Of a stretch of 12,193 nucleotides of DNA, positions 538 through 12,193 are shown piece after piece (within the stretch, counting starts at the first letter, position 1; every line of letters begins with the position of its first letter). Source of the stretch: Verrucomicrobia bacterium UBA4286 (GTDB lineage: Bacteria; Verrucomicrobiota; Kiritimatiellia; RFP12; UBA1067); the NCBI GenBank assembly GCA_002395905.1, contig DGVK01000105.1, positions 2,946 through 15,138 on the forward strand, in the 5' to 3' direction. The translations under genes were made by a program, and so were the position numbers. Under the pieces are notes generated by a model. That model was given only the letters and a program-made list of their open reading frames with translations. It did no database searches and had not been told where the DNA came from.

Positions 538-566
538 ATTATATCAAATTCCGCGGCTCCGGTCAC
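538..566 (-). promoter_or_regulatory. Sigma70-type extended -10 promoter for the last gene
   Basis: On the minus strand GTGACC (566-561; four of six match TTGACA) is followed by a 17-base spacer and TATAAT (543-538), preceded by TGA to make an extended -10, TGATATAAT. The -35 box overlaps the TGA stop of sigma factor A (565-563). Counting the last T of the -10 as position -7 puts the start at 531, the A of the next gene's ATG, which predicts a leaderless transcript. A perfect -10 with correct spacing is unlikely by chance in DNA this GC-rich. It resembles a housekeeping promoter, not an ECF one. Confidence 0.6.
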
Positions 567-1084
567 CTGCCGCCGGCGGACGGATTCGCGACATCTCCCA
601 GATCGGAAAGTATTTCGCGCAGCTTCTGCTTCGCGCGGAATATGCGCACCTTCACGAGATTGTCGGTGACACCCGTCTGCCGGGCTATGTCGCTTATCGA
701 CATTTCGGCGACCTGAAAGAGCGTGTATGCCTCCCGCAGCACAGGCGGCAGCCTGGCAAACGCCTCCTTGAGCCGCCTGCGCAGATACGCCGCGTCGGAC
801 GGCAGCGCGGCCGGGCCGGTCGTGCCGGCGTCTTCATCCTTTATCTCGTCCACGAACGTCATTCGCGAATCGTCGCGCGCGAGGTTCTTGCGCAGGTTGC
901 GGGCGATAGTGAATGCGAGGCCCGATACTGCCCCTTCGTCGTCGCGCAGATCGTCGCGCATCTTCCATATCTTGAGAAACGTGTTCTGGACGAGGTCGCA
1001 CGCCTCGTGGTAGCTGCTGCCGCTTGAAACGAGCCAGTTGGTCAGTTTCGGAGCGATCGAGTTGTAGTGCGCTTCGATTGTCAT
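563..1084 (-). CDS. ECF-type RNA polymerase sigma factor A (operon-embedded)
   Basis: A 173-residue ECF sigma factor with regions 2 and 4 only. Region 2 carries ACDLVQNTFLKIWKM (28-42) and LAFTIARNLRKNLARDDSR (56-74). Region 4 carries LPPVLREAYTLFQVAEMSIS and a helix-turn-helix ending NLVKVRIFRAKQKLRE. It is a clear paralogue of sigma factor B: both begin MT-[I/L]-EA-x-YN and share RDDSR, YLRRR and NLVKVR. ATG at 1084 overlaps the sctU stop (ATGA), with GGAGG 4 bases upstream. The last codons overlap the -35 region of the promoter at 538-566. No anti-sigma gene follows; the next gene is an exported protein. A role in controlling T3SS or effector genes is inferred from position only. Confidence 0.9.
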   Translation of the reverse strand: MTIEAHYNSIAPKLTNWLVSSGSSYHEACDLVQNTFLKIWKMRDDLRDDEGAVSGLAFTIARNLRKNLARDDSRMTFVDEIKDEDAGTTGPAALPSDAAYLRRRLKEAFARLPPVLREAYTLFQVAEMSISDIARQTGVTDNLVKVRIFRAKQKLREILSDLGDVANPSAGGR

Positions 1085-2181
1085 ATATCCTCCAACGAGA
1101 CGGCGTCAAGCTCCGCCTCTTCCTTTCTGGCGTCTTGTATGCGCTTGGCCCATTTAAGGACTTCTGCAACAGGCTCGATAAGAGAATCGGGTATGAAATC
1201 GTCTATCCTGCCTTCGGCGTACAGCGCGCGGGCCAGCGGGCGGTCCTCCATGACGGGAATCCCCTCCTCCATTGCCGTTTCGCGTATTATGCGCGCCGTC
1301 TTTCCTGCACCAAGCGCGCATATCCGCGGCAGCGGCGACTCTTCGGCTTCAAAGCGTATGCCGACGGCAAGATGCGTCGGGTTGGTCACGACCACGTTAG
1401 ACCGTTTTGCGGCCTTCACAGGGTCGGGGCCGTTCATGATTTCATCGCGGAACTGCCTCTGGGCCTGCTTGATCTCGGCAGAGCCTTCCATCTCCTTGTA
1501 TTCGCGCTTGACTTCATCCTTGGTCATCATCATCTGCTTGGTGAAGTTGCGCCCCTGGAAGAGGCGGTCCACGATGGCGATCACGATGTAGCCGAATGCG
1601 GTGTAGACCGCAAGGCGCTTCAGCATGACCTTCAGGCACGGGAAGATGTCGTCGATCGTGCCGTAGCACATGGTAAGGAGTTCGGGCACGCTGGCCCATA
1701 TTATCTTGTAGAGCAGATAGCTGAGGAACGAAACCTTGACGACGTTTTTGAGGAACTCGAAAAGATTCTTCATCGAGAATATCTTCTTGGCCCCTTCTAC
1801 GGGGTTGAGTTTCTCCATCTTTGGTATGATCGGCTCAAAAGTGAAAAGGAAGCCTATCTGCGAAACATTGCCGACGATTCCCACGACCGCCGCGACAAAG
1901 ACGAATATGAACGAATGCTTGCAGATCATGAGCACGGTGAGCGCCGAGGCCTGGCGCACGGTTCCGTCGACACCGCCGGACATCCCGCCGCCGATGAACT
2001 TCAGAAGCGTTTCCATGTCATCCGCAAGCGCAAGCCCCATCCAGGCGAGAACCGCGAAAAGCACTATCAGGATCGCTGTCGAGACTATGTCCTTGGAAGT
2101 GCAGACCTGCCCCTTCTCCCGCGCGTCGCGCAGTTTCTTGGGGGTAGGCATCTCTGTCTTCTCGCCGGACGACTCCGCCAT
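1081..2181 (-). CDS. sctU: SctU, autocleaving substrate-specificity switch
   Basis: Export apparatus protein that switches secretion from rod/needle subunits to later substrates (YscU/FlhB family), 366 residues. The N-terminus has the usual KTEMPTPKKLRDAREKGQV (8-26), followed by four membrane helices (about 32-52, 80-105, 144-165 and 185-205). The cytosolic part holds the autocleavage motif NPTH at 267-270, with cleavage expected between Asn267 and Pro268, in VVVTNPTHLAVGIRF. The C-terminal tail is acidic. ATG at 2181 has GGGAGGGGG upstream. The stop overlaps the start of sigma factor A as ATGA, so switch protein and sigma factor are translationally linked. Confidence 0.98.
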   Translation of the reverse strand: MAESSGEKTEMPTPKKLRDAREKGQVCTSKDIVSTAILIVLFAVLAWMGLALADDMETLLKFIGGGMSGGVDGTVRQASALTVLMICKHSFIFVFVAAVVGIVGNVSQIGFLFTFEPIIPKMEKLNPVEGAKKIFSMKNLFEFLKNVVKVSFLSYLLYKIIWASVPELLTMCYGTIDDIFPCLKVMLKRLAVYTAFGYIVIAIVDRLFQGRNFTKQMMMTKDEVKREYKEMEGSAEIKQAQRQFRDEIMNGPDPVKAAKRSNVVVTNPTHLAVGIRFEAEESPLPRICALGAGKTARIIRETAMEEGIPVMEDRPLARALYAEGRIDDFIPDSLIEPVAEVLKWAKRIQDARKEEAELDAVSLEDI

Positions 2182-2185
2182 AGCG

Positions 2186-2968
2186 TCAGCCCCCTCCCAG
2201 AAGTTTTCTTACAGGGCCGAGGATCGCGTCCTCCCTTGTGTACATGAGCATGTCGAGAATGAACGGGAGATATACGGCGAGCATCGCGACACCGAGGGCG
2301 GATTTCACCGGCATCGACAGAAAGAACACGTTGAGCTGCGGCGCGGTACGGTTCACAAGACCAAGGCCGAGCGTCGCCAGAAACATTATTATTATGACCG
2401 GCGCCGAGATGACGACCGTCACGCGAAGCATGCCGTCAAGCGAACCGAGAATCTGCACCGGCGCGTCCTTGGCGAACGAAACCCCGCTTGCGAAGACCGG
2501 CCATATGAAATAGCTGGAATATATCGCGCCGAGAAAGACAAACACCGCGCCGCACACGAAAAACAGCGTGGAGACGATCTGCGTGAAAAAGATTCCTGTC
2601 GTCGAGACCTGCGCCCCGGAAAGCGGCGAATACACCTCGCCCATAGTCGCGCCGCGCTGGTTGTCGATGAAGTTGCCGACGTTCTCGGCGATCCAGAAAG
2701 GGACGGCGGCGAAGAAGCCGAGCAGGAATCCGACAAGCGCCTCCTTGAAGGCGACGAGCGAGAACATCCATACGTTCGGCTCGCCCGGCGGCATTGCTGC
2801 GTGGATGAAAGGGACGGCAAGACAGGCGAAGGCGAAAACGGCCGCCCGCCTCGCCACGCCGGGAATCATGGAGTCGGTGAGCGCAGGACACACCGCGAAC
2901 GCGCCGCCGATCCGCGCCATCGCGAGGACCGCCGCCAGCACCCACCTATGGAATTCCACGTATGGCAT
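2186..2968 (-). CDS. sctT: SctT, export apparatus membrane protein
   Basis: Single-copy export gate subunit (YscT/FliR family), 260 residues with about six hydrophobic segments. Clear family blocks are EALVGFLLGFFAAVPFWIAE (76-95), NVGNFIDNQRGATMGEVYSP (96-115) and NRTAPQLNVFFLSMPVKS (206-223). There is no purine-rich site before the ATG, so translation probably depends on the TGATG junction with sctS. The stop is 4 bases before the sctU ATG. Confidence 0.97.
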   Translation of the reverse strand: MPYVEFHRWVLAAVLAMARIGGAFAVCPALTDSMIPGVARRAAVFAFACLAVPFIHAAMPPGEPNVWMFSLVAFKEALVGFLLGFFAAVPFWIAENVGNFIDNQRGATMGEVYSPLSGAQVSTTGIFFTQIVSTLFFVCGAVFVFLGAIYSSYFIWPVFASGVSFAKDAPVQILGSLDGMLRVTVVISAPVIIIMFLATLGLGLVNRTAPQLNVFFLSMPVKSALGVAMLAVYLPFILDMLMYTREDAILGPVRKLLGGG

Positions 2969-3234
2969 CAGCGTAGGAGCGCGAAGTGGGTGAAGATGTC
3001 CTGAGTGTAGAGAAGCAGGGACGAACCCATCCAGGACGCGCAGGCGAGAAGAGTAAGCGAAATGGCGATAAGCTTAACGGCGAAACCGAGCGTCTGCTCC
3101 TGGATCTGGGTAAGAGCCTGCAGAAGCGAAACGAGGATTCCTATGACGGTCGCCACCAGAATGGGAATGAGCGAGAGCCGCAGCACAAGCAAAAGGCATG
3201 TCTGCGCATAGTCCAGCAGCTGCGACTGACTCAT
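2968..3234 (-). CDS. sctS: SctS, export apparatus membrane protein
   Basis: Small two-helix membrane protein of the export gate (YscS/FliQ family), 88 residues, the usual size. It begins MSQSQLLDYAQTCLLLVL, with helices at about 10-38 and 50-75 joined by the conserved QALTQIQEQTLGFAVK loop. I chose ATG at 3234 over the longer frame from 3276: 3234 gives an ATGA overlap with sctR, has AGAGGA about 10 bases upstream, and matches the family's N-terminus; the extra 14 residues fall inside sctR. The stop shares one base with the sctT start (TGATG). Confidence 0.96.
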   Translation of the reverse strand: MSQSQLLDYAQTCLLLVLRLSLIPILVATVIGILVSLLQALTQIQEQTLGFAVKLIAISLTLLACASWMGSSLLLYTQDIFTHFALLR

Positions 3235-3944
3235 AGCGCGTATCCTCTTACAAGGCCCTGGATGAGAAGCGTCCACCCGTTGACCATCACGAACAGCAGC
3301 AGCTTGAACGGAAGAGAGATGGTCACAGGCGAGACCATCATCATGCCCATCGCCAGCAGGATGTTGGAGACGATTATGTCGATTGCAATGAACGGCAGGT
3401 AGACGAGGAAGCCTATCTGGAACGCCTTGGTGAGCTCTGAGACGCAGAACGAGGGCAGCAGTATGCAGAAACCGTCCGGGTCGACCGCGGCGGGAGCCCC
3501 GTCCTCCTTGGCCCAGAGGCGCTCTGCCGTGCGGACGAAGAACGCTCTTTCACGGTCGGATGTATGAGCGGCGAGCCAGTTTCGGAACGGTTCGGCCGCG
3601 GCGGAGAAATCTTCGGCTTCGATCGTCGAGGAGGAAAGAGCCTTCTCCTGCCCTTGAACGGCAGGCGCCGCCTGCCTCGCGACCTGCGACCGGCGCTGCT
3701 CCACACGGGACTGCACCAGCCCCCACGATTCCGACGCGACTGGCGCCATAATATAAAACGTAAGGATCATCGCAAGCGCGTTGATCACCATGTTCGGCGG
3801 TATGGACTGAATTCCGAGCGCATTGCGGATGAGCGACATCACAACAACTATCTTGAGATAGCTCGTCGCCACCATCGCCGCAAATGGAAGCAGCGAAAGC
3901 CCGACGAACATGACTATGAGCGCGAATGGGTCTGTCTGAAACAT
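3231..3944 (-). CDS. sctR: SctR, export apparatus membrane protein
   Basis: Core subunit of the SctR5-T1-S4 export gate in the inner membrane (YscR/FliP family), 237 residues. Family blocks are TSYLKIVVVMSLIRNALGIQ (27-46) followed by PPNMVINALAM (49-59), and LPSFCVSELTKAFQIGFLVY (163-182) followed by LPFIAIDIIVSNILLAMGMM. Four hydrophobic segments are near 7-28, 52-70, 168-200 and 205-228. The loop between the second and third (about 70-160) is polar, Ala/Gln/Glu-rich and a little long, matching the periplasmic domain of the family. The stop overlaps the sctS start as ATGA. FliP is excluded by the context. Confidence 0.97.
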   Translation of the reverse strand: MFQTDPFALIVMFVGLSLLPFAAMVATSYLKIVVVMSLIRNALGIQSIPPNMVINALAMILTFYIMAPVASESWGLVQSRVEQRRSQVARQAAPAVQGQEKALSSSTIEAEDFSAAAEPFRNWLAAHTSDRERAFFVRTAERLWAKEDGAPAAVDPDGFCILLPSFCVSELTKAFQIGFLVYLPFIAIDIIVSNILLAMGMMMVSPVTISLPFKLLLFVMVNGWTLLIQGLVRGYAL

Positions 3945-3947
3945 GAA

Positions 3948-4442
3948 TCATCCCTCCTTTAGATCGGCAAGCATCGGGCGCATGGCGCGTTTGGCGCGGC
4001 AGAGCCTCACCTTGACCAGGTTTTCGCTCGCGCCGGTAAGCGCGGCCGTTTCGCGGATGGTCCGTCCGCCGATTTGATAGAGCGTATACGTCTCGCGAAG
4101 AACCTCCGGCAAAGACGCGAGCGCGCCGGCGATGCGGCGGCGAAGGTAAAGAGAATCCGACGCGGCAGTCGCCTTCACACCGTCGGTCGTTCGCCTGTCA
4201 AGATCTTCAGGCCGCTCGACGACGGAAACGCGGCTGTCGTCGCGCACGCGGTTCGCCCGCAGGTTGCGGGCGGTTGTGAAAGCGAGGGCGCAAAAGTCGT
4301 CTCCCTCCCGCTCTCCGCGTGCGGCGATGCGGACGAAGGCGTCGTGCAGAATGTCACGCGCCGTCGCCTCATCGGTGCCGGTCGATACGAGATATCCGAC
4401 GATTTTCGGACCGGTCTCGTTGTATGCCGCCTCAAGCGTCAT
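3948..4442 (-). CDS. ECF-type RNA polymerase sigma factor B (operon-embedded)
   Basis: A 164-residue group 4 (ECF) sigma factor with only regions 2 and 4. Region 2 covers about 9-75, with [12 protein letters not shown] (28-39) and the -10 recognition helix block [19 protein letters not shown]. Region 4 covers about 100-160, with [15 protein letters not shown] and the helix-turn-helix ending [15 protein letters not shown]. It starts with ATGA overlapping the sctN stop and has a perfect AAGGAGG 10 bases upstream, located within sctN; it ends 3 bases before sctR. Ysc-type clusters have sctO-sctP-sctQ in this interval. By eye about four in ten residues match sigma factor A at 563-1084. No anti-sigma gene adjoins it. 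Its targets are unknown; it does not look like a simple copy of HrpL. Confidence 0.88.
3953..3959 (-). promoter_or_regulatory. Ribosome binding site of sctR
   Basis: AAGGAGG, 8 bases before the sctR ATG, lies within the last codons of sigma factor B. It is a full-strength site, so sctR can be translated well even though it follows a regulatory gene. Confidence 0.65.
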
Positions 4443-5770
4443 CCGGCGACGGCCTCCTTAAGCTTCTGTATCGTCTCGTCATAGACGGGCCGCTCGTCGA
4501 GACCCTGCTTCAGAAAAGCGTTGATCGCGCCGTTCTTGGCGATGGCTTCATCCGCCTCGGGGTCGGATCCCTTCTTGTATTCACCGATCTTCAAAAGCAG
4601 TTCCACCTCGGCGTATTTCGCAAGAAGCGTGCGCAGCTTCGCGGCGGCGGCTTTGTGATCCTTCGGGATGATGGCCGTCTGGCAGCGCGAAACGGAGGCG
4701 AGGATGTCTATCGCGGGATAGTGGTTCATCTGCGCGAGCTTGCGTGAAAGTATTATGTGACCGTCGAGAATGGAGCGGGTCTCGTCCGCTATAGGCTCGG
4801 TCATGTCATCGCCTTCCACGAGAACGGTATAGAGGGCCGTGATGGAACCTTTGGAAGAGTTGCCGGCGCGCTCCATGAGCTTCGGCAGTTCCGAAAAGAC
4901 GCTAGGCGGGAAGCCTCGTCGCGTGGGAGGCTCGCCCGCGGCGAGGCCTATTTCACGTTGCGCGCGGCCGAAGCGCGTCACGCTGTCCATCAACAGAAGG
5001 ACCTTCATGCCTCGATCGCGGAACGATTCCGCTATCGAGGTGGCCACATACGCGGCCTTGAGACGCTCCATGGAAGGTCTGTCGGAAGTCGAAATTACGA
5101 GAACCGATTTCTTGAGACCCTCCGGTCCGAGATCCTTTTCAATGAATTCGCGCACCTCGCGGCCTCGCTCGCCGATGAGGGCGAGGACCGTCACCTCGGC
5201 CTCAGTGTTGCGGATGATAGAGGCGAGAAGCGTCGACTTGCCGCCGCCTGCGGCGGCGAAAATCCCCATACGCTGGCCTTCGCCGCAGGTGAGAAGCCCG
5301 TCGATGGCACGGATGCCGAGAGAAATCGGCTTTGAGATGATGGTGCGTTCAAGAGGCGATGGCGGCGGCGCATAGACGGGGTAGTATCCGTCCGGACGGA
5401 GAGGCCCCTTCCTGTCGGCGTCCATCGGACGGCCCAGTCCGTCAAGAACACGTCCGAGCAGGTTCATCCCGACAGGCACCATCTGGACGCGCCTCGTGGG
5501 AATAACCTCAGTCTCGGCCGATATGCCTATCATGGGGCCGAGCGCCGTGAGAAGCGCGGCGTCTTTCGTGAAACCCACGACCTCCGCCTGAACCTCCAGC
5601 CCCTCCCATGGATTGCGCAGTATGCAGACCTCTCCCACTTTCACGCCCGGGACGGAAGCTTTTATTATAGTGCCGACGACCTGGATGACCTTGCCCTTTA
5701 CATCGATGGGCTGCGCGTCCTCGACGGCGCGGTTCAGCACTTCGGGAATATAGTCGAACACGCCGCTCAT
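4439..5770 (-). CDS. sctN: SctN, T3SS ATPase
   Basis: Hexameric ATPase that strips chaperones and unfolds substrates at the export gate (YscN/InvC/FliI family); 443 residues from the ATG. Walker A is AAAGGGKST at about 172-180, catalytic Glu lies in [10 protein letters not shown] (about 200-209), Walker B is VLLLMDS (about 257-263), and the T3SS/flagellar ATPase signature [16 protein letters not shown] is at about 288-303. The tail with [14 protein letters not shown] is also typical. Two starts are possible: GTG at 5773 and ATG at 5770. GAGG lies 6 bases before the ATG but only 3 before the GTG, so I prefer 5770, giving a TGATG junction with sctL. The stop overlaps the sigma factor start (ATGA). 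Confidence 0.97.
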
Positions 5771-6414
5771 CACTCACCTCTTGCCGCGGACGCGGGCGCA
5801 TGCCCTCCCATGATATGCCTGTCGAGCGAACGCTTGATCGCGGCGAGCTGCGTGTCGACCGAGGCGTCGGCGACGCCGGCCTCAGTCTCGAGAATGCACG
5901 CCGCGCCCTTGAGCCGCGGATCCTCCACGACGTCGAACGACTCGACCGTAGGGTATATCTGGCGAAATTCCGCAAGACGGTCTTTCACGACCCCCGTCAT
6001 CTCGGGCGCAACCTTGAGAGTCACATGACGCTGCGTACGGATCACCGCGCTCATCGTCTTGCGGACGATGTTGACCACCATCTCCCTGTCGCCGATCTCC
6101 ACTACGCACGTCTTGAGCGCCTTCATGACCACATCGGCCATCTTGCCTTCGACGCTCTCCATGAACTCCACCGACTTGTCGACGAGATCGAGCTTCTGCA
6201 TGGCGATTTCAAGCTTCCCCTTCTGAAGCCCCTCCTCGTAGCCGCGCTTCTTCTCCTCCTCGAAAGCGGCCTTGGCCTCTTCGCGTATTCTCTCCGCATC
6301 GGCTTCGGCCGCGGCGATGATCTCCTCTGCACTGCGGACGGTGGCAACATCCGCAGCCTTTATAACGCGCCTGTCGGAGACGAGCGTGAAATCAGGTTTG
6401 TTGATCAGCAGCAT
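5770..6414 (-). CDS. sctL: SctL, ATPase stator/regulator
   Basis: Stator of the T3SS ATPase (YscL/FliH family), 214 residues; dimers connect SctN to the SctQ/SctK pods. The N-terminus has VSDRRVIKA (12-20), then a charged Ala/Glu/Lys coiled coil (about 28-95, containing [16 protein letters not shown]) and a C-terminal ATPase-binding domain with the family block [20 protein letters not shown] (165-184) plus SVDTQL. ATG at 6414 has GGAGG 10 bases upstream and overlaps sctK by 10 bases. The TGA stop touches the sctN start. All expected features are present. Confidence 0.93.
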
Positions 6415-7088
6415 AGTGAATGCGCCTCCGGAAATTTAAGTTTTAAAAGACGTGCCAGCGCCGCGTCGAGGACGTCCCTCCCCTGCGGCGGAACCTTTGA
6501 AGCGGCGGATTTGAACGGAAAAGTCTTCGGCAGCTTGAGGGCGACTCTTTCTTTGACCTGCGCCGGCGCGTCGCCCAGCAGCGCGAGCAGCAGTTCACAG
6601 CCGGCCGCGACCACGCAGTCGACCGCGCTCTTGGACGGCGCGCCGTCCTCGGCCGCGCGGGCCTCGCCGATTTTAGTGAAATAGGCGGTGAAAGCGAGCA
6701 CGTCAGGATACACCCCGGGAAGAGCCGCCTTGAGCGAGCGCACCGTCGCGCCGTCGGTCACTTTTCTAAGCGACGGTGCGCAGGCCAGTGCTCCAAGCCA
6801 GAGGACGATCGACTTTATTACAGCGCCGTCCAGAAGCGCGAGCCTGCTCCAGTCGGATGCAGGGAAATCGTGAAAGAACGGCTCTGCGCCGAGCTGCGAC
6901 AGAATCCATGCCTTGACACGGGAAGACGGCATAAGACCTTCTGCCGGGACCGCGCCGCCGCCGATCCCTTCAAGCCAGCTCTTGTGGACCTGGGGCGCGA
7001 AGTTCCACAGGAAGTCCCTCGCGCGCGGCCACAGAACGCCGTCCGCCACAAGCGCACGGGCCTCGCTCATTTCAATCAGCCGACCCAT
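6405..7088 (-). CDS. sctK: SctK, sorting platform protein
   Basis: Cytosolic sorting-platform component (YscK/OrgA/PscK family) that links the SctD ring to SctQ-SctL pods; 227 residues, near the family's usual 200-230. The recognisable core is ALLDGAVIKSIVLWLGALAC (84-103) with SLRKVTDGATVRSLKAAL (106-123) and YPDVLAF (127-133), the SctK hallmark block. The C-terminal third is Lys/Ala-rich and ends with two Cys. ATG at 7088 is supported by AAGGAG about 10 bases upstream; the next Met (residue 7) has no ribosome site. The gene overlaps its upstream neighbour by 13 bases and sctL by 10, in the standard J-(x)-K-L-N order. Confidence 0.85.
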   Translation of the reverse strand: MGRLIEMSEARALVADGVLWPRARDFLWNFAPQVHKSWLEGIGGGAVPAEGLMPSSRVKAWILSQLGAEPFFHDFPASDWSRLALLDGAVIKSIVLWLGALACAPSLRKVTDGATVRSLKAALPGVYPDVLAFTAYFTKIGEARAAEDGAPSKSAVDCVVAAGCELLLALLGDAPAQVKERVALKLPKTFPFKSAASKVPPQGRDVLDAALARLLKLKFPEAHSLCC

Positions 7089-7417
7089 TGCCGTGAGGCT
7101 CCTTTCCTGAACTCAAGATAACGCGCCCAGCGCGACCGTGCCTCTGAACCTCTGCCCAAAAGACGCAGCGCGCGGGTCTCCAGGACTGCCTGCGCATAGG
7201 CCAGATGCCGCGGAAACTCGGCCGCGCGCAGGATTTCAACGGCTCGCGCGGGTTCTCCATCCGAAAGCATGATCTCTGCGAGCGCGGCCGCCGCAACGCC
7301 GTCCCGAGGACAGTCCTCGCAGAGCGCCTCGCAGACGCTGCGCGCGCGGTCGCGTCGACCATGCCTCATGAACATCCATGCGGCGGTCAGCAGAAACTGT
7401 CTCTCGACGCCGTTCAT
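7076..7417 (-). CDS. sctY: YscY-like small TPR chaperone
   Basis: A 113-residue helical TPR-type protein. The pattern RQFLLTAAWMFMRHGRRDRA (6-25) followed by a 'CEALC' helix, a 'GEPARAVEIL' helix and 'ARSRWARYLEFRK' near the end recalls Yersinia YscY (about 114 residues), the chaperone that holds the early substrate YscX and binds SctV. The comparison is from memory, not an alignment. It sits between sctJ and sctK, an unusual place: in Yersinia yscY lies next to yscX and yscV. No SctX-like gene is in the window. The start has AAAGG upstream, 3 bases after the sctJ stop; the end overlaps sctK by 13 bases. The alternative is a second YscG/SycD-like chaperone. Confidence 0.62.
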   Translation of the reverse strand: MNGVERQFLLTAAWMFMRHGRRDRARSVCEALCEDCPRDGVAAAALAEIMLSDGEPARAVEILRAAEFPRHLAYAQAVLETRALRLLGRGSEARSRWARYLEFRKGASRQWVG

Positions 7418-7420
7418 CCT

Positions 7421-8011
7421 TTACCTTCGCGGAGGCGAATCGCGGAATACCGTCACCATGATCTTCTCGGCCGTAAGGCCCTCGATCGAATTCTTTACGA
7501 GTCCTTTTATCGAAGGAATCGCATCTGTGATGTCGGCATCCCACCGCGAGCGTATCGCGACTGCGGCCGACGATGGCAGCGCGTGCCGCGCGAACGGATC
7601 GTTCTCCGGCAGGACGATGTGGACTCGGGCGTCGACCACGCCGTCGATCGCCGAAATCGTTTTCGCCAGATCCTGCGCAAGCGCGTCCATGAAGCGTATC
7701 CGCTCCTCGCTCGGCGAAGAGATCATGCCTGTCTTCTTGAACACCTCGCCGATTCCCTGATGAGGATTGCGCGGCAGCCCCCGGCGCTCCAGCAGGTTTA
7801 CCGCCTCGGCGAAACGGGACTCCACGACCGACACGTTCCATGTGCCCTCTTCGCCGGGGGACTTGTGGCATCCTATGCCGGCGTCGATAAGAGCCGCCAT
7901 GACCAGATTGGCCTGGCGCTCCTCCAGAGACGAGTGCAGTGTAGTCTCTTTGTCGCATCCGGCGAGCAGAAGCGCAATTGCGGCAAGAGCGGTGAATTGA
8001 GGCCGTATCAT
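7421..8011 (-). CDS. sctJ: SctJ, inner-membrane ring lipoprotein
   Basis: Inner component of the inner-membrane ring (YscJ/PrgK/EscJ, related to FliF), 196 residues. The N-terminus is a lipoprotein signal with lipobox LLAGC; Cys19 would be acylated. Ring-building domain 1 is about 22-78, with the family motif ERQANLVMAALIDAGI (31-46) and EAVNLLERRGLPR (69-81). Domain 2 is about 105-190, with LAQDLAKTISAIDGVVDARV (111-130) and VHIVLPE (130-136). The protein stops right after domain 2 with DSPPRR, so the C-terminal membrane helix seen in YscJ and PrgK is absent; EscJ is a known short type. The start at 8011 has GGGAGGGAG just upstream. It follows sctI by 16 bases and precedes the next gene by 3. 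Confidence 0.95.
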   Translation of the reverse strand: MIRPQFTALAAIALLLAGCDKETTLHSSLEERQANLVMAALIDAGIGCHKSPGEEGTWNVSVVESRFAEAVNLLERRGLPRNPHQGIGEVFKKTGMISSPSEERIRFMDALAQDLAKTISAIDGVVDARVHIVLPENDPFARHALPSSAAVAIRSRWDADITDAIPSIKGLVKNSIEGLTAEKIMVTVFRDSPPRR

Positions 8012-8027: not shown

Positions 8028-8408
8028 TCATTGATTCTTGATCAGCGTCTGAATCGCATTCGATGACTTGTCGGCGACTTTCGTCACGACCTCCTGCTGG
8101 AACGCGAGATTCATCACCTCGTATTGCAGCTCCACCATCTGCACAGCCGCGACATTGCCCCTGCCGTTCAGTTCGGCCAGCGCGCGTATGCGATGGATGA
8201 TCCCCTGGTTGTTCGCACGGGCCGAACGCCATGACGCCGCGACCTCCGACGCGAACGGAACCGGCTCTGCGGCCATCGCCGCCTGGAACCGGTTGACCGC
8301 CGACGGATCGGCGACCGCCGTCGCGGCCTGCGTGCCGGCCGTCTGGTTGAACTGCATCGCGTTGGCGCCGGTCGCCCGGATTGCCTCGATCATAATGGGG
8401 TCTGTCAT
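8028..8408 (-). CDS. sctI: SctI, T3SS inner rod protein
   Basis: Inner rod/adaptor subunit (YscI/PrgJ/EscI family), 126 residues, secreted early and assembled beneath the needle. The N-terminal part is Ala/Thr-rich and disordered, with the family-like DPSAVNRFQAAM at 34-45. The conserved C-terminal helix runs from about 86 (VQMVELQYEVMNLAFQQEVV) to TLIKNQ at the end, like the needle-type polymerisation helix. ATG at 8408 overlaps the sctG stop as ATGA and has AAGGA upstream. Its place directly before sctJ is the usual I-J order in Ysc, SPI-1 and chlamydial clusters. Confidence 0.88.
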   Translation of the reverse strand: MTDPIMIEAIRATGANAMQFNQTAGTQAATAVADPSAVNRFQAAMAAEPVPFASEVAASWRSARANNQGIIHRIRALAELNGRGNVAAVQMVELQYEVMNLAFQQEVVTKVADKSSNAIQTLIKNQ

Positions 8409-8773
8409 TTCATCAAGTCCTTTGCAAGTTGAACCGCCGCAGGATCTGATTCATCCGCAACAGCCTCGGAGAGCGAAACCATCGCCTCGCTCCTCCGGTC
8501 CATCCGCAAAAGCGCCATCCCTCTGAACGCCTTGAGCATGGCAGACTGCGGGAAGCGCGGCAGAGCCTCGCGATCGATGAATTCAACCGCGCCCGTAAAG
8601 TCCATCATGCTGATGAAAAGGATGGCGTTCGCCACAGCGACGGACGCCTCCTTGGGGCGAAACCGCCCCAGCACGGCGAGTATTTTCGCCGCGGACTGGA
8701 AGCGGTTCTGCCCTGTCGCCATCAAAGCGACGTTCAACAAGAGCCGTGCCTCTTCTGCGGTTATGTCAAGCAT
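8405..8773 (-). CDS. sctG: SctG-like TPR needle chaperone (YscG family)
   Basis: A 122-residue all-helical protein with TPR-like repeats (helix pairs near 7-36, 41-66 and 74-105; for example GRFRPKEASVAVANAILFIS and LKAFRGMALLRMDRRSEAM). YscG/PscG proteins are three-repeat TPR chaperones of about 115 residues that bind the C-terminal helix of the needle subunit together with YscE. Position immediately after sctF, overlapping it by one base, matches yscF-yscG. The ribosome site is weak (CAGG 2 bases before ATG), so translation probably depends on coupling to sctF. Other T3SS TPR chaperones (SycD or YscY type) are possible from fold alone; the neighbourhood decides. Confidence 0.8.
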   Translation of the reverse strand: MLDITAEEARLLLNVALMATGQNRFQSAAKILAVLGRFRPKEASVAVANAILFISMMDFTGAVEFIDREALPRFPQSAMLKAFRGMALLRMDRRSEAMVSLSEAVADESDPAAVQLAKDLMK

Positions 8774-9093
8774 TACCTGAAGTTGGAGGCGATCGAGTTC
8801 AGCGCGTCACCCATGTTCTTGTTGATGTTGGTCATCGTCGTGAGAGCAAGGTTCCACTGCTGCAGGTCGTACTGCAGCTGCTGGAGGTTCGCCTGCACGT
8901 CCGGATGCTTCTGGTAGTTTTCAAGCGACTCTTTCAGCTTGTCCTCCATGTGATTCGCCGCGTTGATAAGCGCATTGTAAACCGCGTCGGTATGTATGTT
9001 CTCCGCCGCTGTTCCGCTTTCGACGCGATACATATCCGTCGAATACGTCTGCAACGCGGGAACGCCTGTCGCCTGTGGTACTGTTGCTGCCAT
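8773..9093 (-). CDS. sctF: SctF, T3SS needle subunit
   Basis: Small secreted protein (106 residues) that polymerises into the extracellular needle (YscF/MxiH/PrgI family). The C-terminal half is the classic needle pattern: a helix ending in YQKHPDVQ (60-67, the Pro-containing turn), then a Gln-rich amphipathic helix with LQYDLQQWNLAL (73-84) and a terminal helix ending IASNF. There is no cleavable signal, as expected for a T3SS substrate. It is longer than the usual 80-87 residues because of a Thr/Ala/Ser-rich N-terminus of about 25 residues; a start at Met21 would give 86, but the strong ribosome site at 9100-9104 supports the long form. It is followed by sctG with a one-base stop/start overlap (TAATG). 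Confidence 0.9.
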   Translation of the reverse strand: MAATVPQATGVPALQTYSTDMYRVESGTAAENIHTDAVYNALINAANHMEDKLKESLENYQKHPDVQANLQQLQYDLQQWNLALTTMTNINKNMGDALNSIASNFR

Positions 9094-9150: not shown

Positions 9151-9387
9151 TCATCCATCCACGCGGACGGTAAGCCGCAAAATCTTTCTTGCGAGGGTGT
9201 TGGCCTCCCTCAACGCCTCCACCTTCGGATAGTCATCCGGTGGCAGACCTTCTTTCAACGCAGATGCGATCCGCCGCTCAAGCGCGGCGAGGACTGCGTC
9301 ATAGCGAGCCAGGGCCTCGTTCCGCTCAGGCCCGGCCAGATCCTTTTCAATCTGCAGAAGTCTCAGAGGTTCCTTCACGGCTTCCAT
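9151..9387 (-). CDS. sctE: SctE-like needle co-chaperone (YscE family)
   Basis: Small 78-residue, almost wholly helical protein. Two predicted helices (about 4-46 and 54-73) are joined by GLPPDDYP, the helical-hairpin layout of YscE/PscE. In Ysc systems YscE and the TPR protein YscG together hold the needle subunit YscF as a soluble monomer in the cytosol. The gene lies in the Ysc order D-E-F-G, which is the strongest support. I chose ATG at 9387 rather than the longer frame from 9531. It has an AGGAAGG ribosome site about 5 bases upstream, overlaps sctD by 13 bases, and the extra 48 residues of the long form lie inside sctD and look like out-of-frame translation (Arg-rich, low order). A generic small coiled-coil protein cannot be fully excluded. 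Confidence 0.75.
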   Translation of the reverse strand: MEAVKEPLRLLQIEKDLAGPERNEALARYDAVLAALERRIASALKEGLPPDDYPKVEALREANTLARKILRLTVRVDG

Positions 9388-10598
9388 GTGAACCTTCCTG
9401 TTGAATTTGTAAGCGTGACGGAGTCCGCCTCGATCTTGAGAATCACGCTGTCGCCGAAAGCCGCCCCCTCGAGAAGGCGGGCGCCGTTCTTCATCACGAG
9501 ACAGGGATAGGGCGTCGTCAGGATTCCGCAAACCGGCATTGAAGCCCCGGCCTTCGCCGTCGATTTCGCCACAGCCCGCACGGCGGACGGCGCATACGGC
9601 GACTCGGCGGCGGCGGTCTCCTGCACCGCAGCCGGCGAAACGCCCGGATCTATCACAACGCCCGACACGTCGACATGTCTGAGTTTCGGCATGTCCGCAT
9701 TTAGAGCATCGACAACGCGCTTGAGCCAGAACGGCGAATTCGAAGCCCCGGCAAGCGCCACAACCCTGTTGGTCGCGGCCACGACCTTCAACGCCCCCTC
9801 GGTTAGAGTGAAAAGCGCGTCTTCCGCCGCCGTGTGCAGAGATTCGTCGTCTGTGAGATCAAGTTCAACCCCAGGCTGGGCATCATACGCCTCGGCTGTC
9901 GCGGACAGGCGCTCGCGGCGGGTCCTCAGATTGCCGTACAACCTGTCATCACCGTCGTTTTTCTCTAAAGTCAAACCGTATTTCGCCGCTATATCGGAAA
10001 GATCGACGGCACGGACGGTCGCCGCCGCCGCATCGGACGACGCCATCTTACCGACGATGAAGCTCCATCCCCTGGCGGCGTACGGCCGGGCCTTTTCCAC
10101 ATACGGGCTTGCCTTGTCGCGGAAGAACCAGCCCAGCACGGCCAAAGCGATCAGCACGAGAACGATTGCGGCAAAGCAGCCGAGGCATCCGCCGCGACGT
10201 TTGTTTCCGCTCGGCGCGGCGGCCTGCGTTTCTGCTTCGCCGCGGCGCACGTCGTCCTCGCCTGCCGCGGATTCCGCCGCCTTCCCGTCGCAGTCCGGCA
10301 GGTCGCGCCCCTTGGCCTCGGCCTGCGGCCAGACGAGATCACCCCACGGCGAATCTGCAGGACCGACAGCCAGCGACGTCGCGCCGAAAGTCTTCACCTG
10401 CAGAGGCTCCAGAGGCTCGCCGCCGACAGTCACGCCGTCGGCGCCGGCTGCGATGGTAACAGGCTCTTCCGGGAGAGTCGTATCTGCAAGCACTATGTCA
10501 CACGAGTCATTCTTGCCGAAAGTGACAGCGACGCCTTCCACGAGCGCTATCTCTGCGCCCTTGTTGGGTCCTTCTACTATCTTGAGCAGGAAATTCAC
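9375..10598 (-). CDS. sctD: SctD, inner-membrane ring protein with FHA-like domain
   Basis: Outer component of the inner-membrane ring of the injectisome (YscD/PrgH/CdsD type), 407 residues. Residues 1-90 look like a degenerate FHA fold (FGKNDSCDIVLADTTLPEEP at 27-46) that should contact SctK/SctQ in the cytosol. An acidic, Ala-rich linker (91-133) leads to KRR and one membrane helix at about 138-158. The periplasmic part holds ring-building-type segments (about 198-315), an Ala/Pro/Ser-rich linker and a small C-terminal beta domain (355-407, with NGARLLEGAAFGDSV) typical of this family's end. The start is GTG at 10598, supported by a GGGGAG ribosome site 9 bases upstream and by a GTGA overlap with sctV. 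The end overlaps sctE by 13 bases. Identification rests on architecture and position, since sequence conservation in this family is low. Confidence 0.88.
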   Translation of the reverse strand: MNFLLKIVEGPNKGAEIALVEGVAVTFGKNDSCDIVLADTTLPEEPVTIAAGADGVTVGGEPLEPLQVKTFGATSLAVGPADSPWGDLVWPQAEAKGRDLPDCDGKAAESAAGEDDVRRGEAETQAAAPSGNKRRGGCLGCFAAIVLVLIALAVLGWFFRDKASPYVEKARPYAARGWSFIVGKMASSDAAAATVRAVDLSDIAAKYGLTLEKNDGDDRLYGNLRTRRERLSATAEAYDAQPGVELDLTDDESLHTAAEDALFTLTEGALKVVAATNRVVALAGASNSPFWLKRVVDALNADMPKLRHVDVSGVVIDPGVSPAAVQETAAAESPYAPSAVRAVAKSTAKAGASMPVCGILTTPYPCLVMKNGARLLEGAAFGDSVILKIEADSVTLTNSTGRFTWKP

Positions 10599-12193
10599 AG
10601 TTTAAGTCTCCCCAGCGGCTGTATGTTTATCTCTGCGCTTAACTCCTGGAAAGAAAGGACCGGCAGTTCGTAGTAGTCCTTCTCTATCATCTTGCGGAAG
10701 TAGCGGCGGATGTCCACCGAAACGATGACAACCGGCTTCTGCGGAATCTTTGCGAGGTCGCCGATGGTGCGCTTCACAACGGCAAGGATTGAACGCACCG
10801 TCGCAGGATCCATCGCCAGGTAGCTGCCGCCGGACGTCTGACGCACCGACTTCCGAATCTTCTCTTCGAGCGACGGGTCGAGCAGGTACGCCGCCACTAT
10901 GTTCTGCCCGCCGGAGAACTTGTAGGAAATATAGCGCGACAGGGCCGCGCGAACATACTCCACAAGAAGGACGGAATCCTTCTCCTTCTGGCCCCATTCG
11001 ATAAGCGTCTGCGTTATGCGCTTGAGGTCGCGGATCGAAATCCCCTCCTGCACAAGGCGCTGAAGGACATCGGTGATCTTCTGAAGCGGCAGCACGCGCT
11101 GAACCTCCTTCACAAGTTCGGGAGCCTCCTTCTCCATGTGATCGAAAAGGATGCGGGTCTCCTGCAGCGAAAGGAATTCGTGCGAGTAGCGCCTGAGCAC
11201 GCTTGAGAGGTGGTATGTAAGAACGCCGCCGTTGTCGAGCGAGCGTATCCCGCTCTCGTCAAGACGAGGCTTGTCCTCCTCCTTGACCCAGCATGTCTCG
11301 TGGCCGGCGAGGAACGCCTTGCCCGTCTCATACGAAATTCCCGTCGCGGCGAGATTCTCCGGCTCTTCGAGAGCGAACACGAACCCTTTGCGCAGAGCGC
11401 CCTCGGAGACCGGGACTTCGTTGACCAGAAGGCGGTATCTGCCGTCGTGGAGCGACGGGTTGAGCGAAAGATTGATGCCTGGGAAAGGCACGCCGAGGTC
11501 GTGATACAAAGCGCGCCGCACCGCCATTATCTGGTCGTTCAACGCTTCATATGAAAGCGCGCCGCGTATATCCGCGTCGATGTCGACCGTAAGAGGCGTG
11601 ACCATCGAGAAGTCGTCGCCGTCCTTCTTCTTCGGGCGCGGCGCACTGCCTTCGGACGGCGCGGCCGCCGCCAGAGGATCCTCGGCCTGCGCAGCACGCG
11701 CGGCGGCGAGCTTCGCCTTGGCTTTAAGGCTCCAGCCGACAAGCGCGACGAACGCCGCAAGCCCGAATATCTGGATTTTCGGGAAGCCGGGGATGAGACC
11801 GATGGCGACGAGCATCACCGCGCCGAGCATGATCGCCTTGGGCTGGGCGAAGAACTGGTCGATGATGTCCTGGCCGAGCGGCTTGTTGTCGACATCTCCC
11901 ACGCGCGTCACGATCACGCCTGAAGTTATCGAAACGAGAAGCGCGGGGATCTGCGAAACCAGTCCGTCGCCGATCGTGAGAATACCGTACTTAGTGACGG
12001 CCCAGCTCACCTCCTTGCCGTTCATGAACACGCCGACGCAGATGCCGCCGACGATGTTTATCGCGGTCATGATGAGCCCCGCGATCGCGTCGCCCTTGAC
12101 GAACTTCATCGCGCCGTCCATCGCGCCGTAGAGCTGGCTTTCCTTGGCGAGTTCCGTGCGGCGCTGCTTGGCCGTCTCCTGGTCGATCGCGCC
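10595..12193 (-). CDS. sctV: SctV, T3SS export gate major protein (5' end cut by window edge)
   Basis: FHIPEP-family inner-membrane export gate protein (YscV/LcrD/FlhA relatives); its cytosolic part forms a nonameric ring that receives substrates and chaperones. The frame is open to the window edge, so about 532 residues are visible and roughly 150-170 N-terminal residues with the first membrane helices are missing. The visible start carries the family signature ESQLYGAMDGAMKFVKGDAI, followed by hydrophobic segments beginning GLIMTAINIVGG, YGILTIGDGLV and AIMLGAVMLVA. A charged linker (about 12 kDa into the visible part, PRPKKKDGDD) leads to the large cytosolic domain. The stop TGA overlaps the sctD GTG start by 4 bases (GTGA). 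Flagellar FlhA is excluded by the injectisome-only neighbours (needle, rod, SctJ lipoprotein). Confidence 0.96.
   Translation of the reverse strand, partial: GAIDQETAKQRRTELAKESQLYGAMDGAMKFVKGDAIAGLIMTAINIVGGICVGVFMNGKEVSWAVTKYGILTIGDGLVSQIPALLVSITSGVIVTRVGDVDNKPLGQDIIDQFFAQPKAIMLGAVMLVAIGLIPGFPKIQIFGLAAFVALVGWSLKAKAKLAAARAAQAEDPLAAAAPSEGSAPRPKKKDGDDFSMVTPLTVDIDADIRGALSYEALNDQIMAVRRALYHDLGVPFPGINLSLNPSLHDGRYRLLVNEVPVSEGALRKGFVFALEEPENLAATGISYETGKAFLAGHETCWVKEEDKPRLDESGIRSLDNGGVLTYHLSSVLRRYSHEFLSLQETRILFDHMEKEAPELVKEVQRVLPLQKITDVLQRLVQEGISIRDLKRITQTLIEWGQKEKDSVLLVEYVRAALSRYISYKFSGGQNIVAAYLLDPSLEEKIRKSVRQTSGGSYLAMDPATVRSILAVVKRTIGDLAKIPQKPVVIVSVDIRRYFRKMIEKDYYELPVLSFQELSAEINIQPLGRLKL

Follow-up and report, generated by a model that had tools for sequence, protein, structure and literature searches.

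The DNA analyzed here, referred to throughout as the window, is 12,193 nucleotides long and represents positions 2946-15138 of contig C101 (DGVK01000105.1) from the genome of the Verrucomicrobia bacterium UBA4286, an assembly of 2.37 Mb in 237 contigs that is 82.6% complete. Its minus strand carries a single type III secretion system (T3SS) operon with the gene order sctV-D-(small ORF)-F-G-I-J-TPR-K-L-N-SigA-R-S-T-U-SigB. The operon runs from sctV (10595..12193), which extends past the window and whose in-window part reaches 554.8 bits against TIGR01399, a model whose cut-off of 692 applies to the complete SctV protein, through sctD (9375..10598; matches below cut-offs) to the needle gene sctF (8773..9093; T3SS_needle_F, score at the cut-off), a gene for an sctG/HrpB1-like TPR chaperone (8405..8773; match below cut-off) and one for an sctI-like inner rod (8028..8408; matches just below cut-offs). 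These are followed by sctJ (7421..8011; TIGR02544), a gene for a TPR protein that is kept between sctJ and sctK in relatives (7076..7417; 47-67%), sctK (6405..7088; YscK) and the stator gene sctL (5770..6414; PRK06937), the three named models being matched above their cut-offs. The export ATPase gene sctN (4439..5773) matches ATP-synt_ab and T3SS_ATPase_C and exceeds the cut-offs of the SctN equivalogs. Behind it lies the gene for SigA (3948..4442; 164 amino acids), and then come sctR (3231..3944; TIGR01102), sctS (2968..3234, with its start set at an internal ATG; TIGR01403) and sctT (2186..2968; TIGR01401), again with scores above the cut-offs. The FlhB/YscU family export switch gene sctU (1081..2181; Bac_export_2, 346 bits; TIGR01404 above cut-off) encodes a protein with an NPTH motif, and the gene for SigB (563..1084; 173 amino acids) closes the operon. 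The start codon of SigB overlaps the stop codon of sctU, and that of SigA the stop codon of sctN, in each case as ATGA.

Both proteins match the Pfam model Sigma70_r4_2 above its cut-off (SigB, 53.4 bits; SigA, 45.1 bits) and the NCBIfam sigma70-ECF model TIGR02937 (68.0 and 48.0 bits; cut-off 42.9), while Sigma70_r2 is matched with 39.4 bits by SigB and with 22.1 bits, just below the cut-off of 24, by SigA. With region 2 and r4_2 and no region 3, both are assigned from these matches to the ECF family of sigma factors. An AlphaFold2 model of SigA is all-helical with a weak linker at residues 71-94 (mean pLDDT 81.6, pTM 0.42). SigA and SigB are 46% identical across 164 amino acids (E 3e-45) and, after themselves, are each other's best match in the source genome (47%, E ~1e-36), where the next-best sigma factor reaches E 7e-9 against SigB and 2e-5 against SigA. 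With further ECF factors from the genome or the genus serving as outgroup, trees place the two in one clade and not in unrelated ECF groups, the outcome that had been set to refute the original prediction. The original prediction of a paralogous sigma pair with the same ATGA coupling to the gene in front is thus borne out. Two other views of SigA were considered and abandoned: that it is a decaying duplicate, as a first tree suggested by placing it on a branch of 2.45 beside G073, until the inclusion of more homologues gave a separate clade; and that it replaces SctO, which conflicts with its sigma factor domains and with the presence of sctO itself on another contig, C225.

The coupling of a sigma gene to sctU is conserved across the genus. 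Of 61 genus genomes, 38 have matches both to sctU (E <=1e-30) and to the sigma family (E <=1e-12 with SigA as query), and the other 23 have neither match (Fisher 2.7e-17), a count from which a broken SigB remnant found in G027 with a SigB query was excluded. Of the 38 carriers, 32 have SigB immediately behind sctU in the same orientation; judged by match coordinates, the exact ATGA overlap occurs in at least 14 of them, and the gap is at most 98 bp in 30. It appears larger in G058 and G078 because the match spans only the 3' part of SigB, and the true gap in G058 is 65 bp. A GGAG resembling a ribosome site stands at the end of sctU, ahead of many SigB starts. Among the six exceptional carriers, three have sctU and SigB on separate contigs, G067 has them in convergent orientation, and G072 and G081 (loci L097 and L096, respectively) carry SigB between sctS and sctT. 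Four SigB genes that seemed to be split (G012, G023, G030, G033) proved to be one open frame each, with a longer linker and no frameshift. The orthologues of SigB in relatives are 54-83% identical to it. From this linkage and co-occurrence (38/38 versus 0/23), SigB fits the class of putative T3SS-dedicated sigma factors. In a scan of named genomes the best matches were MAGs labelled Kiritimatiellae, Kiritimatiellia, Verrucomicrobia, Victivallales or uncultured bacterium, several of them derived from rumen or gut, and by these names the group is of the Kiritimatiellae type. In G027, which has no sctU match, the broken sigma remnant (C77, 6217-6584; L042, L119) is followed by sml, the gene described below; its injectisome looks to have been lost or left unassembled.

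The two paralogues are not equivalent partners across the group: SigB alone is the norm and SigA is the rare one. A sigma family match was found in 79 of the 161 genomes of the order, and SigA in just two, the source genome and G096, a member of another genus whose SigA is 63% identical to that of the window. Comparison of 20 further loci of the order and 18 others with both clades gave 36 SigB-type loci among the 38 that were typed; the other two are the SigA of G096 and a second, divergent copy that G087 carries (L183, G087:C84), which is 37% and 39% identical to the two clades, fits neither well and looks like a third type of the family. Besides this divergent copy G087 has one SigB-type gene, and G128 has two, so that a second copy alone implies no new role. 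SigA nevertheless forms a single clade (support 100/100), and a protein database holds 84 SigA clusters at >=52% identity besides the window's own; three further clusters, 42-43% identical to SigA, group with SigB in the tree. The data neither call for monophyly of SigB nor reject it (p-AU 0.37). No SigA relative was found among viral contigs.

The position of SigA coincides with a rearrangement of the operon. In relatives whose operon is readable there, sctO-sctP-sctQ lie between sctN and sctR, the exceptions being G019, G059, G000 and G096. In the source genome these genes reside on C225: sctO at 4526-4996 (YscO above cut-off), sctP at 4998-6980 (HpaP above cut-off) and sctQ at 6967-7827, the last of which aligns with its relatives at E 5.5e-103 and has no Pfam or NCBIfam match. 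SigA occupies the vacated sctO-sctP-sctQ site behind sctN in both the window genome and G096, which likewise has the order sctN-SigA-sctR and a relocated sctO, and in which SigB lies beside sml. That this order recurs in an independent assembly from another genus, and that the sctN-SigA junction is an exact gene overlap, makes it most improbable that SigA entered the window through a chimeric contig, for all the fragmentation and incompleteness of the source assembly.

In many relatives the neighbor of SigB is sml, a gene for a protein of ~80-98 amino acids whose N-terminus varies while its end, DxALxRDDxLGxLVxAAFNLPPPPMPxF, is conserved. Of 26 sml loci, some of which come from near-identical genomes, 24 have an element of two blocks upstream of the gene, TGTAACCTTT-N10-CGTGTA-N-AC. 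With the block spacing left free at 12-17, it was 15 in 21 loci and 16 in three. The box abuts sigB in many genomes, its -35 half often falling within the last codons of that gene. In an exact scan of the 61 genus genomes, GTAACCT-N13-GTGTA occurs 220 times in the 38 carriers, a total that includes the boxes ahead of sml from which the pattern was taken, and 13 times in six of the 23 non-carriers (Mann-Whitney 9e-8), while the reversed control pattern has four sites in all 61 genomes. At least one exact box is present in 35 of the 38 carriers and none in the other three. The six genomes with these 13 boxes, G027 among them, are 59-91% complete, and no intact SigB was detected in them. In the source genome, GTAACC-N13-CGTGT has five exact sites and its reversal none; the five precede sml, smlA-sctOPQ (see below) and, by 36-47 bp, ORFs of 1185, 912 and 974 amino acids. 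No box within two mismatches exists on C101, the 21.4-kb contig of the apparatus operon, so that neither sigma factor is seen to drive that operon or itself; the operon looks independent of the box, although its start may lie past the contig end. Within the window the box that follows sigB elsewhere is gone. The place where sml would be is taken by a gene for a protein with, by eye, a signal-peptide-like start (1-531), and a segment just past the window and beside a run of N (C101:2747-2941) is 75% identical to the end of that protein.

The genes behind the box are those expected of a late T3SS regulon. We fetched all 59 listed box sites of seven genomes (G008, G012, G017, G022, G058, G061, G063); an ORF of >=60 amino acids starting with ATG lies within 120 bp at 56 of them, as compared with 54% when 3584 positions were drawn at random from the same loci, and the ORF start is 20-65 bp behind the box at 46 of the 59 sites versus 22% of random positions. 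Twenty of these ORFs, selected by length and completeness, were scanned: four are SseC translocators, two are IpgD-like, two match CesT above and one below the cut-off, and the remaining 11 have no convincing match. The two IpgD-like proteins (L280, 377-2689; L249, 135-2453; PF05925, 217-225 bits) come from two genomes of the genus. None of the 1185-, 912- and 974-amino-acid ORFs of the source genome matches a Pfam family above cut-off; by eye, the start of the 974-amino-acid ORF resembles those of ORFs that follow sml in G058 or a box in G009, G012 and G022. At the level of sequence, the boxes shared by SseC, CesT and IpgD-like genes are predicted promoters, and a SigB regulon of translocators, CesT chaperones, effector-like proteins and Sml is a well supported prediction. 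The box is probably the SigB promoter, and we have high confidence that SigB would be the factor reading it. One could also see in the boxes the sites of an unrelated regulator such as an activator, with the sigma factors as mere passengers of the operon, given that box and sigma are connected through sequence comparison and that 13 boxes sit in genomes without intact SigB; the two-block structure with its near-constant spacing (15 or 16 in 24/24), the distance of most boxes to a start codon and the co-occurrence of the box with the sigma gene that it so often abuts make this an improbable explanation.

For SigA, a target is suggested by the moved operon. On C225 a short Sml-like ORF of 55 amino acids, smlA, stands ahead of sctO and overlaps its start as TGATG; in G096 the smlA-like ORF has 41 amino acids, the same overlap, a box upstream and two possible longer starts. 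The resemblance of smlA to Sml amounts to E 1e-6 and 1e-4 in small searches. Both smlA boxes keep TGTAACCTTTT but end in CGTGTT, whereas the final A of CGTGTA is present in 29/29 boxes found without fixing that base (24 from sml loci, four from the source genome, one from G096); the contrast of 2/2 with 0/29 gives a Fisher value of 0.002 with related loci treated as independent. G019 and G059, which have moved sctO-sctP-sctQ and lack SigA, show no box in the 400 bp before sctO and no smlA match. We have moderate confidence that SigA reads the box of smlA-sctOPQ; since SigA is found in only two of the 161 genomes, this candidate target is defined by two promoters.

In a comparison of 78 SigA with 37 SigB sequences (a fixed difference requiring >=80% on each side), 17 columns are fixed differently and 46 are shared; within residues 1-40 (regions 2.1-2.2) the ratio is 11 differing to nine shared, elsewhere six to 37 (Fisher 0.0016), and 11 of the 17 differences lie within residues 11-38. 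The helix that reads the -35 element, ENLVKVRxxRAK, is common to both except for L/I. One fixed change, from Lys66 of SigB to Ala63 of SigA, is in the helix that reads the -10 block in ECF factors, and the altered half of the smlA boxes, CGTGTT, is likewise the -10 half. ECF factors contact core polymerase, and often an anti-sigma factor too, through region 2. For Bordetella, the anti-sigma factor BtrA has been modelled as lying on residues 21-38 of its sigma factor BtrS (PMC10732220). The identity of the -35 recognition helix in the two clades, and of the -35 half of the box, would also suit a regulon run entirely by SigB, smlA-sctOPQ included, with SigA being redundant or modulating, for example as a competitor with weaker core binding. 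His in the SigA clade in place of SigB Gln33, the region 2.2 Trp of SigB that, by eye, is not kept and the Sigma70_r2 score below the cut-off point the same way. Yet a conserved SigA clade with 84 other protein clusters is not simply decaying, and CGTGTT is seen only in the two genomes that have SigA; we regard a regulon run by SigB alone as rather unlikely, if worth keeping in mind.

The role of the Sml proteins is harder to judge. A search for Sml gave 505 proteins at E 0.01 among 7996 candidates scored; the 120 matches listed include none with a Pfam domain, those few that are named are called hypothetical protein, and the single organism shown is a Kiritimatiellae bacterium. The one member scanned, Sml of G017, matched no Pfam family at E 0.1, FlgM included, and a query of the protein database with smlA returned only smlA itself. 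The latter starts 9-10 bp behind its box (L123, 4325-4359; L289, 1341-1376), as compared with 20-114 bp at other sites, so that the message would be near-leaderless or smlA untranslated from there; being short, close to the box and matched by nothing else in the database, smlA might not be a translated gene. By its position Sml is a candidate for an exported anti-sigma factor, and an anti-sigma role, with or without export, is a speculative proposal. The chances are about even that Sml has no part in sigma control and is simply an early substrate of the T3SS or the cargo of a chaperone. The sml of the source genome, on C83, adjoins a CesT chaperone gene (PF05932, 56.6 bits); the N-terminus, by eye of low complexity as well as variable, resembles a secretion signal; and the protein that was scanned has no Pfam match. 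A partner of the sigma factors is suggested, in turn, by the position of sml next to sigB in many genomes and by the short core-only version that heads the SigA-tied operon in both cases. The two roles can coexist, as BtrA illustrates (PMC10732220).

The reading of these data that we favor, and hold to be somewhat more probable than not, is that two ECF sigma factors serve one injectisome, with SigB assigned to the translocators and effectors and SigA to sctOPQ. Translation of SigB would begin at the end of sctU, the export-gate gene, so that SigB is produced whenever the genes of the export apparatus are expressed. The motif, the co-occurrence and the kinds of genes behind the box lead us to infer strongly that it then directs RNA polymerase to the box promoters of translocators, CesT chaperones, effector-like proteins and Sml. 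SigA would be an old paralogue that shares the -35-reading helix and has an altered N-terminal, core- or partner-binding half. It would have settled behind sctN, in the place left by sctOPQ, and its most likely target is the relocated smlA-sctO-sctP-sctQ operon of the two genomes, read through the CGTGTT box. In that case the cell would switch the completion of its export platform (sctOPQ) and the making of cargo separately, as two steps. Sml proteins are plausible partners of the sigma factors, possibly exported anti-sigmas like BtrA, and this is the weakest step of the scheme. Of the two-step transcription program that had been proposed at the outset, a sequence of apparatus and then cargo is thus retained, on account of the promoter-defined late T3SS set, while a division into early and late substrates is not, given that the likely target of SigA is the moved smlA-sctOPQ operon. 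Nothing was found to support the other proposal, a heteropair with overlapping targets, nor is one needed, since ECF factors act singly.

A more elaborate version, which we put forward as a tentative idea and consider unlikely as it stands, has two sigma/anti-sigma modules, derived from a duplicated sigB-box-sml cassette, checking two successive steps of injectisome assembly. The cassette would have landed after sctN (sctN-sigA-box-smlA-sctO-P-Q-sctR), and transfer of the box-smlA-OPQ block would then have produced the layout of both SigA genomes. SigA-SmlA would release sctO-sctP-sctQ (stalk, ruler and sorting platform), and the Sml of SigB would be exported once the SctU-side gate works, releasing translocators and effectors.

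T3SS-dedicated ECF factors such as HrpL and BtrS are known from Proteobacteria. FliA of the flagellar system lies outside the ECF family, and in textbook systems its gene does not adjoin flhB, the homologue of sctU. The FliA-FlgM scheme, in which completion of the export apparatus gates the sigma factor that makes late genes, is similar in logic to what we propose; unlike FliA, SigB is an ECF factor that adjoins sctU, and the one Sml scanned has no FlgM match. BtrS of Bordetella is a T3SS-dedicated ECF sigma factor on which part of the apparatus genes depends little (PMC7498569, PMC10732220), and BtrA is described as an exported anti-sigma factor with the CesT-family chaperone BtcB (PMC10732220, PMC7498569). 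Our system resembles this one in having a putative T3SS-dedicated ECF factor and in the location of sml, often beside sigB and in the source genome beside a CesT gene. It differs in that BtrS has its gene in a btr locus of its own, alongside partner-switch proteins and under BvgAS, while SigB and SigA follow sctU and sctN, and in that Sml has ~90 amino acids, no Pfam match and a putative anti-sigma role; the likeness to BtrS/BtrA is drawn from arrangement. HrpL of Pseudomonas syringae is likewise a T3SS-dedicated ECF factor with a two-block box before effector genes (PMC3879358, PMC5263251); it also drives apparatus genes, and the second half of its box is CCAC (PMC3879358). Here the box reads GTAACC-N13-CGTGTA and is absent, within two mismatches, from the apparatus contig of the source genome, which sets SigB apart from the HrpL group. 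In the open-access literature we found no description of the regulation of Kiritimatiellae injectisomes and, in its titles and the beginnings of its abstracts, no two ECF sigma factors paired with type III secretion.

What distinguishes the present case is a T3SS ECF factor built into the core operon of a non-proteobacterial group and coupled to the export switch gene. Its promoter can be searched for as a pattern and provides a list of candidate translocators, chaperones and effectors for dozens of uncultured gut genomes of the Kiritimatiellae type. SigA offers a natural experiment in how the duplication of a sigma factor may rewire the order of assembly; if our reading is true, assembly and cargo production would be timed by two related switches.

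A previous study described T3SS genes from the sheep rumen, many of them unassigned, as well as T3SS genes of Succinimonas amylolytica (PMC5549432). Relatives of SigB with 42-44% identity occur in Succinivibrionaceae and Aeromonadales MAGs (L217, L218, L220-L224, L226), among them S. amylolytica (L220, 9923-10504; NZ_KB899642), and a 39% relative occurs in an uncultured Desulfovibrio (L219, 1774-2262). Nine such Succinivibrionaceae, Aeromonadales and Desulfovibrio loci with 39-44% relatives were scanned for the box and gave two loose pattern matches, none convincing. In L223, sctV lies ~9 kb from the SigB relative, while by eye the genes after it in L220 resemble an HlyD/ABC peptide export system and the Desulfovibrio gene is located a few kb from type VI secretion-like genes; from the neighbors of the latter, the SigB-related clade may serve several secretion systems.
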